A stretch of DNA of 64,000 nucleotides from positions 2,555,001 to 2,619,000 of the forward strand of contig NZ_CP119676.1 of NCBI RefSeq assembly GCF_029318635.1. Reading direction: 5' to 3'. This document shows, piece after piece, positions 39,766 through 45,915 of the stretch (positions within the stretch are counted from its first letter, which is position 1; each line of letters opens with the position of its first letter). The notes below the pieces were generated by a model. That model saw nothing but the letters and a program-made list of their open reading frames with translations. It was not told the origin of the DNA and made no database searches. The position numbers and the translations under genes are program-made. This DNA comes from Varunaivibrio sulfuroxidans. Lineage in GTDB: Bacteria > Pseudomonadota > Alphaproteobacteria > Rhodospirillales > Magnetovibrionaceae.

Positions 39766-40437
39766 ATGCAAATCGACGACCGGATCGCGCAATTGCTGTG
39801 TTCGCGCCTGTGTCACGATCTCGCCGGCCCGGCGGGGGCGGTCAACACGGGAATGGAGCTTATCGGCGAAGCCGAAAATCCGATATCGCCCGAAAATGCG
39901 CAGACGATGGATTTTGTTATGCACAGCGCCCGTCAGGTGACCGATCGTCTCGCCTTTTATCGTCTCGCCTTTGGTTTCGCGGGACGTGGCGGTGCGCCGC
40001 GCGTGGCGGTCGCCGACGCGTGTCGTTTGATCGAAAGCTTTATCGACCGGTCGCGTATCGACGTGCGTTGGGATTGTCCGGACGGGGATTTGACGTCGGA
40101 TCAGATTCGCATGGTGTTTACGATGATATTGATGGCCTTGGGTTGCCTGCCGCGAGGCGGGCGGTTGCTGTGTGGATTTGGAACGATCGAGGACGGTTTC
40201 GGCGTCGCGATGACCGCATCGGGGGAAGGCGCGCGCCTTAGCGACGACGATCGGGCGGCCTTGGACATGAACGTTCCCGTCGATCGCCTAAGCGCACGCA
40301 ACGTGCACGTGCGCTGGGGAGCGCTTGTGGCGGCGAATATGGGAGGGGCGATCGAAATTGACGGCCCCGCAGAGGGCGCGTTCCTCGCAAAAGAAAACGC
40401 AGAGGTGCGTTTGGCCGTTCTCCTGATCGGATCCTGA
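39766..40437 (+). CDS. chpT: ChpT-type histidine phosphotransferase
   Basis: A 223-residue protein of the ChpT family, dimeric phosphotransferases that pass phosphate from CckA to CtrA. The N-terminal dimerisation helix holds the phosphoacceptor His17 in SRLCHDLAGPAGAVNTGMEL, followed by an ATPase-like fold with DQIRMVFTMILMALGCLPRGG (in parts) lacking nucleotide-binding boxes. The start is ATG 39766 with TTGAGGAGA about 7 bp upstream. It lies between the AOR regulator and cheA; ctrA itself is 5 kb away, so phosphorelay parts cluster here. Confidence 0.85.
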   Translation: MQIDDRIAQLLCSRLCHDLAGPAGAVNTGMELIGEAENPISPENAQTMDFVMHSARQVTDRLAFYRLAFGFAGRGGAPRVAVADACRLIESFIDRSRIDVRWDCPDGDLTSDQIRMVFTMILMALGCLPRGGRLLCGFGTIEDGFGVAMTASGEGARLSDDDRAALDMNVPVDRLSARNVHVRWGALVAANMGGAIEIDGPAEGAFLAKENAEVRLAVLLIGS

Positions 40438-40680
40438 GCGCGTGTGTACTATGTCGTAGGGGCGGGTGTGGGCTCAGGAAAAACTTGAAAATAGAAGACG
40501 TTGATGCTTTTTTGAGGTAGCTTCTCGATATCTCAGTAGAATATTCTCGACATGTGATTTGGAGTGCCTATTTAGTTCTTGTGAGTGTTTTTTTAGCGCT
40601 CCGTCGGTTATCCGTAAATGCGGGATGATTGCGCTAGGCGCCCCGTGTATCGGGACCCCTTGTATGCTGGAGTTCGCACA

Positions 40681-43557
40681 ATGGATGATTTGTTAAGCGA
40701 GTTTATTACGGAAACCTCCGAAAGCCTGACGGAGGTCGATCTTAAACTTGTTGAATTTGAAAAAAATCCCCACGATAAGGAAATTATCGGACACATTTTT
40801 CGCCTTGTTCACACGGTGAAGGGGACGTGCGGATTCCTTGGCTTACCCCGCCTCGAGTCGGTTGCGCACGCCGGCGAAAACGTAATGGACAAGTTCAGGG
40901 ACGGTGCGTTGGACGTAACGCCGACAGCGGTTTCCCTAGTGCTTAAGTGTATCGATAAAATTCGCGAACTGTTGGAGCGCCTGGAAGAATCCGGCGAGGA
41001 GCCCGAGGGTGACGATAGCGAATTGATCGCCGAGTTGAACGCCTTGGCTTCGGGGAAGGCCGCAGCGGCCCCGGAACCTGCCCCGCAAGCCCCCGCGCCG
41101 TCGGCGGCGGACACGGGGAGTGGTCCGGTGACCAGCGACGAAGGCTTCCCCATTGCCGCCGAACTGATGGCGGAGTACGAGGAGGCCGTCGCCGGTAATG
41201 CGACGCCCGATGGCCCGATGACCAGCGATGAGGGCTTTCCCATAGCCGCCGAACTGATGGCGGAATATGAAGAAGCCGTCGCCGGCGGGAAAAAGACCGA
41301 CGGCGGCCCGGTGACCAGCGACGAAGGTTTCCCGATCGCCGCCGAGCTGATGGCCGAGTACGAAGAAGCCGTCGCCGGCGCCGCCTCCGCCCCAGCCCCC
41401 GCCGCGCCTGCGCCCGTCGAAGCCGCGCCGGCGACCCCGGCGCCCGCCCCCAAGGTGCCCGCAAAAACGGAAGAAGAAAAAGCGCCGGTGAAAAAAGCCG
41501 ATGGCGGCGGTGTGGCCGCGGCGTCGATTCGCGTCAACGTCGAGGTCCTGGAAGACCTGATGACGATGGTCTCCGAAATGGTGTTGACGCGCAATCAGCT
41601 CTTGCAGATGGTGCGTTCGTACGAAGATAGCGAATTTACCGTTCCGATCCAGCGTCTTAGCCATATTACGACCGACCTGCAAGAAGGTGTGATGAAAACG
41701 CGCATGCAGCCGATCGGCAATGCGTGGGCCAAATTGCCGCGCATCGTGCGCGACCTTGCGATCGAAACGCATAAGAAAATAGATCTGCAGATGATCGGCG
41801 CGGAAACCGAACTTGATCGGCAAGTTCTGGACCTGATCAAGGATCCGCTCACCCACATGGTCCGCAATTCCGCCGATCATGGGCTGGAGGTGCCCGACGA
41901 CCGCGCCATGGTCGGGAAACCCGAGATGGGGACGATTACCCTCAACGCCTATCACGAGGGCGGGCACATCATTATCGAAATCAGCGATGATGGTCGGGGC
42001 CTCAACATGGATCGCATTCGTAAGAAATGTCTTGAGAATGGCTTGGCCAGCGAGGCCGAACTGGATGCGATGTCGACCTCGCAAATTCAGCAATTCATAT
42101 TCAAGGCTGGTTTTTCCACGGCTGAAAAAGTGACCAGTGTTTCCGGGCGTGGCGTCGGCATGGATGTCGTGCGCACCAACATCGAAAAAATCGGCGGAAC
42201 GGTCGAATTGAAATCGGTCGAGGGGAAGGGATCGACTTTCCTTATTAAAATCCCCCTGACCTTGGCGATCGTATCGGCCTTGATCGTGGAAAGTCACGGC
42301 GAAAAGTTCGCCATTCCACAAATCAGCGTCCTTGAACTGGTGCGCGCTTCGAGCCGTTCGGAATACATGATCGAGGTGATCAACGAGAGTCCGGTCTTGC
42401 GATTGCGTAATCGGTTGCTGCCGTTGGTTAATCTTGGCAATCTCCTACACCTTCAGGAAACCGAAGTCGATCGTATCGGCGACGAAATGTTTATCGTCGT
42501 CACCCAGGTTGGCACCTATACATTCGGAATTATTGTCGATCGGGTCTTCGATACCGAGGAAATCGTGGTCAAGCCGGTCGCGCCGATTTTGCGCAATATT
42601 CCCTTTTATTCGGGCAATACGATCTTGGGTGACGGCGCCGTGATCATGATCATAGATCCTAACGGCATTGCCGCGTCAACGGGGCAAGCCGGCGGCCATG
42701 CCGAGCATCCCGACGCGACCAAGGAGGTTATCGGCCATGACAGCGACGAAAAATCGACGATGCTGATTTTCCGCGCCGGCGGGGACGAGCTGAAAGCGGT
42801 TCCGTTGGCTCTTGTCGCTCGCCTGGAAGAAATCAACATGTCCAATGTCGAAAAGTCTCATGACGAACATGTCGTGCAGTACCGTGGTCAGTTGATGCCG
42901 CTCATTCCCTTCGATCCCGCTCATGTATGGAAAACCGAAGGCCGTCAGCCGGTCTTGGTGTTTTCGGACAACGAACGGTCGATGGGGTTGGTGGTCGATG
43001 ACATTGTCGATATCGTCGAAGATCGCCTGAAAGTCGAAATTTCGGCTTCACAGCCGGACATTATCGGTTCGGCGGTGATCGCCGGAAGGGCGACCGATGT
43101 TATCGACGCCGGATATTTTCTGACGAGGGCATTCTCCGACTGGTTCGGCGGCTCGGACGAACACGGCACCAAGGGGCGGGGAACGCTTCGCGCCCTATTG
43201 GTCGATGACAGCCCGTTTTTCCGCAACCTCCTGGCGCCGATCCTATCCGTTGCGGGCTATGACGTCACGACCGTTCCCGGCGCCGGGGACGCCTTGCGCT
43301 TGCGCGATAACGGGTCGGAATTCGATGTCATCATCAGCGATATCGAAATGCCCGACATGGATGGCTTCGAATTCGCAAAGGCGGTACGTGCGGATGTACG
43401 CTGGGGAGACGTGCCGATGGTGGCCCTGTCCTCACGCGCCAGCCCGGAAGATTTCGAAAAGGGTCGGGATGTCGGGTTTAACGATTACGTCGCGAAATCC
43501 GACCGTGACGAGTTGATCCGCAGTTTGGCGTCAACGGTTGCCGGCGTCGCCGGTTAA
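40681..43557 (+). CDS. cheA: Hybrid chemotaxis histidine kinase CheA with extra CheW domain and receiver
   Basis: A 958-residue kinase. Order: HPt domain (1-105) with His44 in LVHTVKGTCGFL; an Ala/Pro linker with three 25-residue repeats (148-233); dimerisation P3 and HATPase domains (about 280-535) with MVRNSADHGLE, SDDGRGLNM and SGRGVGMDVVRTNI; a first CheW-like domain (about 536-680); a second CheW-like domain (about 693-825); and a C-terminal receiver (about 838-958) with LLVDDSPFFRN and IISDIEMPDMDGFEF. No CheY/CheB-binding P2 domain is recognised, and the repeats lie where it would be. ATG 40681 is chosen as it gives the usual MDDLLSEFITE start. cheB follows 345 bp later with no cheW or cheY between. 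Confidence 0.95.
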   Translation: MDDLLSEFITETSESLTEVDLKLVEFEKNPHDKEIIGHIFRLVHTVKGTCGFLGLPRLESVAHAGENVMDKFRDGALDVTPTAVSLVLKCIDKIRELLERLEESGEEPEGDDSELIAELNALASGKAAAAPEPAPQAPAPSAADTGSGPVTSDEGFPIAAELMAEYEEAVAGNATPDGPMTSDEGFPIAAELMAEYEEAVAGGKKTDGGPVTSDEGFPIAAELMAEYEEAVAGAASAPAPAAPAPVEAAPATPAPAPKVPAKTEEEKAPVKKADGGGVAAASIRVNVEVLEDLMTMVSEMVLTRNQLLQMVRSYEDSEFTVPIQRLSHITTDLQEGVMKTRMQPIGNAWAKLPRIVRDLAIETHKKIDLQMIGAETELDRQVLDLIKDPLTHMVRNSADHGLEVPDDRAMVGKPEMGTITLNAYHEGGHIIIEISDDGRGLNMDRIRKKCLENGLASEAELDAMSTSQIQQFIFKAGFSTAEKVTSVSGRGVGMDVVRTNIEKIGGTVELKSVEGKGSTFLIKIPLTLAIVSALIVESHGEKFAIPQISVLELVRASSRSEYMIEVINESPVLRLRNRLLPLVNLGNLLHLQETEVDRIGDEMFIVVTQVGTYTFGIIVDRVFDTEEIVVKPVAPILRNIPFYSGNTILGDGAVIMIIDPNGIAASTGQAGGHAEHPDATKEVIGHDSDEKSTMLIFRAGGDELKAVPLALVARLEEINMSNVEKSHDEHVVQYRGQLMPLIPFDPAHVWKTEGRQPVLVFSDNERSMGLVVDDIVDIVEDRLKVEISASQPDIIGSAVIAGRATDVIDAGYFLTRAFSDWFGGSDEHGTKGRGTLRALLVDDSPFFRNLLAPILSVAGYDVTTVPGAGDALRLRDNGSEFDVIISDIEMPDMDGFEFAKAVRADVRWGDVPMVALSSRASPEDFEKGRDVGFNDYVAKSDRDELIRSLASTVAGVAG
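41122..41379 (+). repeat. Three in-frame 75-bp repeats in the cheA linker
   Basis: Copies at 41122-41196, 41212-41286 and 41305-41379 encode the same 25 residues (GPVTSDEGFPIAAEL then MAEYEEAVAG), with one change (Val to Met in copy 2). Spacers of 15 and 18 bp differ. Between copies 1 and 2 I count ten silent codon changes and one amino-acid change, so the peptide, not the DNA, is conserved. Confidence 0.93.
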
Positions 43558-43902
43558 CCGGCGGGGCGACGGCGAATAAGGGCTGCGCCGCGCGGCGAAA
43601 AGAAAGGGTGAGTGATCGCAAGGCTTCGGTGTTTTCTTGACTTGACGTAGGTTCTAGGTTGGAAATCGTTTGAAATGCGTGGTATCGACTCCAGTGGAAA
43701 TTTCCTGCGCCCCGAAAATTACGATCGGGTCCTATCAGGAGGGGGCTTCTTTCCACGACGCTATCGGTCCGTCCGGCGGCTTGGTCGTTCGTATCGAGGT
43801 TCCTTACGTTAATAATAAGATCGCCGGCTGCTTGTTGACACAGCACCTTTTTTGTAGCACACGTTCCAGTAGTGTCGGCTTGGCGTTTATCAAGAAAGAA
43901 GA
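43558..43902. other. 345-bp gap between cheA and cheB
   Basis: No convincing gene. Frames on either strand (43670-43930 plus; 43478-43846 minus) lack ribosome sites and family resemblance. The base composition is less GC-rich than the flanks from about 43620 onward. TTGACA occurs at 43834-43839 but without a good -10. cheW and cheY usually occupy this place. Confidence 0.6.
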
Positions 43903-45108
43903 TTGTTTTTGTTGGATAGTGAACAAGTGAAAACAGAAGATCCGATACGCGTGATGGTGGTTGATGATTCCGCCGTTATCCGCGGGTTGATGACGCGCAT
44001 GCTCGAAGAAGACCCGGACATCCGGGTCACGGCCTCGGTGGGGAACGGGGAACTCGCGATCAAGAGCCTGAGCAGGGATATCGTCGATGTTATCATTTTG
44101 GACATCGAAATGCCCGTTATGGACGGCTTGACCGCCCTGCCTAAGTTGCTTGAAATCGACCGCGATATCAAAATCATCATGGCCTCGACACTGACCATGC
44201 GCAACGCCGAAATTAGCATCCGCGCACTCAGCGCCGGGGCGACCGAATATATCCCCAAACCGTCTTCGTCGCGCGATATTGGAGGCTCTAGCGACTTCAA
44301 GCGCGAGTTGGTCAGTAAAATCAAAAGTCTTGGCGATCTTCGTCGTCAGCGGGTGGGGCGCGCTCCGGCGAAACCCTCCGCCCCAGGCCATGCGCCGGCG
44401 TCGCCGGGCGCCCGTCCGGGCGCGACCCCGGTGGCCCCGGCGACCCCGGCGCGGCCCAGGCCCGCTGCGGGCGGGTGGCACAAGGCGACCCAGGACGAGG
44501 TTGTCCTACGCAAGGCCGGGACCAGCAAGCCGGATATTCTGGCGGTGGGGAGTTCCACCGGCGGGCCGCAGGCCTTGTTTGAGTTTTTCAAGAATTTGGA
44601 TAAAACCCTTAAGTTACCGATTGTCATTACGCAGCATATGCCGGCGACGTTCACGACGATCTTGGCCGAACATATTACCCGCATGTCAGGGTGGCCCTGT
44701 AGCGAAGCGAAGAACGGCGACGTGCTCACGCCGGGCCATATTCTTCTTGCGCCGGGCGACTATCACATGACCGTCGTCAACAAGGGACCCCAGCGGGTGA
44801 TCGCGATCAATCAAGATCCGCCCGAGAATTTTTGTCGGCCGGCCGTTGATCCGATGCTGCGCAGTTTGGTTCAGGTTTACGGGCCGCGCATCCTGACCGT
44901 TATCCTAACGGGTATGGGCAACGATGGCGAAAAAGGCTCGACGATTGTGGTCGAAAAGGGCGGTACCGTGATCGCTCAGGACGAGAAAACCAGCGTCGTT
45001 TGGGGCATGCCGGGCGCGGTGGCGTCCGCCGGTCTGTGTAGCGCCGTCCTGCCGGTCAAGGAATTGGCCCAATACGTCGGCCGGTTTGTGTCCCGCACGT
45101 CGGGGTGA
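43903..45108 (+). CDS. cheB: Chemotaxis protein-glutamate methylesterase CheB
   Basis: A 401-residue response regulator that demethylates or deamidates chemoreceptors. The receiver has MVVDDSAVIRGLM and Asp67 in ILDIEMPVMDG; a Pro/Ala-rich linker (about 150-200) leads to the methylesterase with the catalytic Ser in VGSSTGGPQAL, His in TQHMPATFT and Asp in LTGMGNDGEKG. Start choice is uncertain: TTG 43903 with AAGAAAGAA upstream is used; TTG 43909 or GTG 43927 also fit. Small GGGGTGACGGT repeats overlap its stop. It faces ctrA convergently. cheR is not found in the window. Confidence 0.94.
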   Translation: MFLLDSEQVKTEDPIRVMVVDDSAVIRGLMTRMLEEDPDIRVTASVGNGELAIKSLSRDIVDVIILDIEMPVMDGLTALPKLLEIDRDIKIIMASTLTMRNAEISIRALSAGATEYIPKPSSSRDIGGSSDFKRELVSKIKSLGDLRRQRVGRAPAKPSAPGHAPASPGARPGATPVAPATPARPRPAAGGWHKATQDEVVLRKAGTSKPDILAVGSSTGGPQALFEFFKNLDKTLKLPIVITQHMPATFTTILAEHITRMSGWPCSEAKNGDVLTPGHILLAPGDYHMTVVNKGPQRVIAINQDPPENFCRPAVDPMLRSLVQVYGPRILTVILTGMGNDGEKGSTIVVEKGGTVIAQDEKTSVVWGMPGAVASAGLCSAVLPVKELAQYVGRFVSRTSG

Positions 45109-45170
45109 CGGTGGGGTGGGGTGACGGTGGGGTGACGGTTTTTTTCGCGGCCGGCCAACCTCGCGCGGCT

Positions 45171-45198
45171 AAAAAACGGCGTTTTTTCTGTTTTTTTT
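45171..45198. terminator. Intrinsic terminator between cheB and ctrA
   Basis: AAAAAAC (45171-45177) and GTTTTTT (45181-45187) flank a GGC loop, followed on the plus strand by CTGTTTTTTTT. The A-run serves the minus strand. Stem GC content is low, so efficiency is uncertain. Confidence 0.55.
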
Positions 45199-45213
45199 AG
45201 GACGTTGTGGCGC

Positions 45214-45915
<702 letters not shown>

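Follow-up and report, generated by a model that had tools for sequence, protein, structure and literature searches.

In the model CheA kinases of E. coli and T. maritima, a folded domain, P2, is situated between the HPt domain and the dimerisation domain. P2 promotes the binding of CheY, and its deletion slows phosphotransfer, as summarized in the available part of a CheA survey (PMC10782961). According to the same part, more than half of the surveyed CheA proteins have no P2, CheA proteins of this kind have an extended, unstructured linker, and P2 is also duplicated in some lineages (Borreliales). The Class F5-type CheA described there has two CheW domains, a receiver and no P2, the same domain set as the CheA studied here. 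The available part of the survey does not mention any conserved linker motif, and that of a paper on Myxococcus FrzE contains nothing on the linker. In Vibrio, an extra region of CheA, the CheA-LID, is bound by the localisation partner ParP, which carries a CheW-like AIF domain, and is restricted to CheA proteins that have this partner, as stated in the available part of PMC5706961. Here, we describe a linker motif, termed motif A, of which neither the sequence strings nor a description were found in open PMC papers. It is thus undescribed so far in this literature, in agreement with the initial sequence-only reading, which did not know the repeat from described CheA proteins, and it is multiplied in the CheA of Varunaivibrio sulfuroxidans.

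The window, a stretch of 64,000 nucleotides from the V. sulfuroxidans genome (G000), contains a P2-less cheA gene at 40678..43557 (+). The open reading frame opens at 40618, and the start at 40678 agrees with the start in the relatives. When the protein is read from 40678, Pfam recognizes Hpt (residues 4-102), H-kinase_dim (282-341), HATPase_c, CheW in two stretches and Response_reg (840-949), which gives the order HPt, linker, dimerisation domain, ATPase, CheW, CheW and receiver; no P2 or CheY-binding profile was listed up to E 1. The gene is followed by cheB (43903..45108, +), encoding a receiver and a methylesterase, which is a candidate partner of the motif. Considered for neighbourhood only, a gene for a ChpT-like histidine phosphotransferase (HPTransfase; 39766..40437, +) lies upstream of cheA and a response regulator gene with a Trans_reg_C domain, which we take to be CtrA-like, lies at 45214..45915 (-), so that these two flank cheA and cheB (39766-45915). 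Many relatives, whether or not they carry motif A, likewise have an oppositely oriented ctrA after cheB. In most relatives cheY is located between cheA and cheB; it is missing there in the window (43557-43903) and in locus L116, and the one close CheY found in the V. sulfuroxidans genome is encoded elsewhere (G000:C1:1523710-1524072), beside a CheR-like frame.

The Ala/Pro-rich linker from the HPt to the dimerisation domain (41056..41526, +, limits approximate) holds three motif copies of 25 residues each on the + strand. Copy 1, GPVTSDEGFPIAAELMAEYEEAVAG, lies at 41122-41196, copy 2, GPMTSDEGFPIAAELMAEYEEAVAG, at 41212-41286 and copy 3, again GPVTSDEGFPIAAELMAEYEEAVAG, at 41305-41379; the peptides are the same apart from one residue of copy 2 (V/M, unit position 3). 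The three copies at 41122-41379 of the sequence-only reading were recovered at exactly these coordinates, and the Pfam layout agrees with its placing of the repeat between the HPt and dimerisation domains of a CheA that has no P2. Tandem Repeats Finder reported positions 41121-41378 with a period of 93, 2.8 copies and a score of 319, and the core, written as a degenerate codon pattern, was matched three times in the window and in none of 100 dinucleotide-shuffled versions.

At the DNA level, the copies differ from each other by 9 to 11 bases, all silent but one or none. The silent and replacement codon differences are 10/1 between copies 1 and 2, exactly as first counted, 9/0 between copies 1 and 3 and 10/1 between copies 2 and 3, with NG86 estimates of dN of 0-0.018 and dS of 0.82-1.08. 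When unconstrained change of an equal number of bases was simulated, replacements as few as those observed occurred in at most 1 of 100,000 draws for each pair and setting, and the copies depart from the neutral silent-to-replacement ratio of tandem slippage. Each copy is under purifying selection, and recent slippage, already rejected in the sequence-only reading, is ruled out by the silent divergence with a fixed peptide together with the neutral simulation. The same evidence bears on the idea that the repeat is a helical spacer or a neutral tandem expansion without any partner. This is in line with a low-complexity linker of variable length and with a copy number that differs between close relatives, but it is very improbable in view of the strong purifying selection on every copy and of hydrophobic positions that are conserved across distant genomes, since slippage or a spacer would not fix the peptide.

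To follow the motif in relatives, 199 genomes of the order were searched at the protein level, and 146 of them gave CheA at E ≤ 1e-60. CheA was collected from 30 loci of this search, from 60 further stretches and from the best 80 of 574 loci of a collection scan. Of 180 CheA-bearing loci, 153 were kept, and 27 were left out as same-contig repeats, as truncated or as lacking HPt. An HMM was built from seeds found by a regular expression, and it re-finds PVAAELL.EVE after G[FA]. The consensus of motif A is G-[FA]-P-[VI]-A-[AQ]-[ED]-[LF]-[LM]-x-E-[VYF]; its bearers are CheA proteins with two CheW domains, a receiver and no P2, and it lies in their variable linker. It is found in 81 of the 153 CheA proteins, once in 48, twice in 25 and three times in 8. 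Magnetovibrio blakemorei carries three copies, while single copies are present in Terasakiella pusilla, Roseospira navarrensis, Phaeovibrio sulfidiphilus and a Magnetospirillum MAG; all 11 examined CheA proteins of the same family have two or three. The tripling is thus a lineage feature, and one copy is enough in most lineages. The proposal of a selected peptide motif in the P2 slot therefore stands, with the amendment that the essential unit is one motif and not the triple repeat.

Among 127 aligned instances, P and A are invariant (127/127) and the later E is nearly so (126/127), although the invariance of P and A is partly due to selection, since this HMM-selected set was anchored on P-x-A. 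In an alignment of 32 CheA proteins, mostly motif bearers, the only invariant columns listed at residues 121-285 belong to copy 2 (P188, A190 and E196), which indicates that the linker can vary outside the motif but not within it. In a Pfam analysis of 32 CheA proteins of relatives, the core domains Hpt, H-kinase_dim, HATPase_c and CheW are present in all 32, and a P2 or CheY-binding model was matched in none (E ≤ 0.01).

A gap-free 20-column profile made from 35 motif instances was then searched against whole genomes in six frames (E ≤ 0.001). It matched 90 of 199 genomes in the order sample, 9 of 385 in the class sample, where the eight besides V. sulfuroxidans are CheA, and 1 of 398 in the phylum sample, which is V. 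sulfuroxidans itself. The motif is therefore not private to this genome. Its absence from all relatives, which according to the sequence-only reading would have refuted the proposal, does not apply. The matches in the order fall on CheA places, as compared by eye with the positions from the protein search, and two matches in short frames (G125, G179) are CheA N-termini at contig ends. As the profile rows came from CheA, the recovery of CheA is expected, and the informative part is the lack of other proteins. In 8 genomes searched with the profile at E ≤ 10, no protein other than CheA matched better than E 0.43, over 10 columns, so FliM and other proteins are without motif A, and a motif common to other proteins of the genome was dropped as a candidate. 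An earlier search of the class sample with the triple unit as query (22 of 385 genomes, E ≤ 0.1) gave 15 of 25 loci without CheA, which were ascribed to chance, and it was replaced by the profile search. Motif A is near-exclusive to CheA and is very probably a real functional linear motif.

The copies were also compared within and between the genomes of 11 family members. Within a genome, an average copy pair differs in 7.7 of 22 codons by silent change and in 2.3 by replacement (21 pairs), and between genomes in 8.7 and 6.3 codons, respectively (330 pairs), while control windows of 22 codons in HPt differ between those 11 genomes by 9.9 silent and 4.0 replacement codons (165 windows). The motif stretch with its flanks thus alters its peptide more than HPt does between genomes and less within genomes. 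At silent sites, copies of one genome are nearly as far apart as copies of different genomes, yet their peptides remain similar, with IAAELM in all three copies of V. sulfuroxidans and VAAELL in sister genera as an example. An old duplication followed by strong selection would fit this pattern, as would parallel change suiting one partner, and the copies within one genome probably serve the same partner.

An AlphaFold2 model of the full CheA, calculated with 63 sequences, had a mean pLDDT of 77.5 and a pTM of 0.38. It places one short helix in each copy (residues 161-172, 191-201 and 222-233 for copies 1, 2 and 3), with a pLDDT of 61-67 for the blocks and below 50 for the surrounding linker. 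The unit may thus form a small helix that is started by an [F/A]-P-[V/I]-A cap in an otherwise disordered linker, as this low-confidence prediction suggests. A comparison of the motif with solved structures gave no match below E 1.

Such a helix could bind in cis to the receiver, the CheW domains or the ATPase of the same CheA and thereby set the mobility of HPt or autoinhibition. This is compatible with a receiver that is recognisable in 31 of 32 motif-bearing CheA proteins and with the fairly constant distance of the motif from both neighbouring domains (median of 48 residues after HPt His+60 and 59 before the dimerisation domain, n=81). However, locus L111 (genome G303) retains two good copies although its receiver is too degenerate for Pfam (E 0.01), which makes CheA's own receiver a poor candidate partner, and the full-length model places the helices without confidence. 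Docking to the kinase's own receiver is therefore disfavoured, and binding in cis as a whole appears unlikely.

By analogy with the CheA-LID, the motif could instead be a tag for polar or array anchoring. Both are extra CheA regions for a proposed or known partner, and motif A is likewise exclusive to CheA in the genome profile searches. ParP, however, carries a CheW-like domain, and in G000 the CheW model matches nothing but CheA, in two stretches, and one CheW gene, which is split. As no further match was obtained, no obvious ParP-like protein with an extra CheW domain was seen in this genome, though a diverged ParP could escape the model; we regard anchoring as rather unlikely. The split gene encodes the V. 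sulfuroxidans CheW (G000:C1:610181-610753, L263), in which the CheW match is divided by an insert of about 60 residues that is charged and rich in Lys, Ala and Glu. Split CheW matches are also seen in the family members G042, G101 and G093.

A less expected partner would be a protein such as CheW, CheR or the ChpT-like protein encoded beside cheA. A chpT-like gene adjoins cheA here and in several relatives, and a cheW gene directly after cheA is found in 8 loci with motif A and not in 69, compared with 63 with and 8 without among loci lacking motif A (148 loci). This strong raw count vanished when independent pairs on the tree were considered (7 pairs, sign test p 0.25-1), and the link between motif A and a missing cheW was rejected. 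Furthermore, a CheW frame outside CheA is present in 12 of 13 motif A genomes checked, with none seen in G132 (81% complete). A partner of this kind is thus quite unlikely.

The reading we prefer, which is among those raised in the sequence-only reading, takes the unit as a short linear motif for docking, carried in the linker of a CheA that has no P2. Motif A lies in the same place as P2 and is proposed to do the same job; in contrast to the folded P2 domain, it comprises only about 12-20 residues in disorder and has no Pfam P2 or CheY-binding match. It would keep the receiver of CheY and/or CheB near the phosphohistidine of HPt, and multiplication to two or three copies at the family level would raise the local receiver concentration by avidity. 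On the present evidence, there is an even chance that the motif is such a P2 substitute, docking the CheY and/or CheB receiver with copies that add avidity.

The N-terminal CheY-binding peptide of FliM, LSQxEIDALL, offers a comparable case. It is a short, acidic, amphipathic helix carried by a flexible tail, the kind of form that is predicted for motif A. In the FliM N-termini of these genomes, repeated short units, for example DDLAAEWEAML, precede VLNQDEIDSLLGF in 29 of 30 FliM proteins (loci L196-L225, with that of V. sulfuroxidans in L207; the other one is incomplete). Two genomes without any match to the motif A profile, G003 and G022, have these units as well. Profile comparison of motif A with the FliM repeat unit gave E 0.043 and a probability of 1.2%, which shows no sequence relation.

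The same linker slot is occupied by a second motif, motif B, (PGEVS)LDELEAAFxxAPGPD, in 39 of 153 CheA proteins, all without motif A (loci L130, L131, L137, L143, L145, L157, L166, L190, L192 and L193 among them). It shares with motif A the slot, a short acidic helix-like nature and occasional multiplication, being present once in 35 and twice in 4 (Sneathiella, Microvirga), while the sequence differs; the two profiles are weakly related (E 0.0037, probability 9%). Motif B had looked similar to the FliM N-terminus by eye and failed the profile comparison, in which the N-terminal CheY-binding region of FliM showed no relation to it, with one aligned column. Overall, 81 CheA proteins have A only, 39 have B only, none has both and 33 have neither, so the function is dispensable or otherwise served in the latter.

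On a FastTree phylogeny of CheA built without the linker, motif A needs 11 changes and motif B 12, far below the minima of 45 and 30 obtained by shuffling, which indicates clade-wise inheritance of both motifs, with repeated loss or swap, for example where Thalassospira (B) stands beside L086 (A). The mutual exclusivity of A and B is confounded with phylogeny. The tree has long branches at L111, L091, L158 and L114, of which L091 is interrupted by a stop codon. The receiver residues by which A and B genomes can be told apart did not point to one docking face. Of the ten CheY columns that best separate A from B, about half presumably lie in alpha4-alpha5 when numbered by hand on E. coli CheY, a weak hint at most.

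Extending the docking reading to these families, we tentatively propose, as a possibility somewhat short of even, that P2-less alphaproteobacterial CheA proteins are not docking-free. Interchangeable linker motifs (A, B and perhaps more) would recruit CheY or CheB receivers and would be gained, lost, swapped and multiplied, so that copy number and not a folded domain would tune phosphotransfer. If true, linear motifs would have replaced a folded docking domain in a central signalling kinase. How the P2-less CheA proteins of the survey (PMC10782961) find their regulators becomes directly testable with motif A, and the natural versions with one, two and three copies, together with the natural swap to motif B, are suited to peptide binding experiments and copy-number mutants.

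Among the CheA proteins with neither motif, further candidate motifs are HGFVPVPA, FPHFKGEDDP and PTFESV (L125, L168, L185, L186; L173, L194; L069, L139, L141). In two CheA proteins the P2 slot contains a bacterial globin domain (PF01152), at residues 153-268 in L158 and 167-277 in L176. L163 and L155 appear globin-like by eye, L163 without a Pfam globin match. The presence of a globin in this slot suggests that gas may be sensed inside the kinase.
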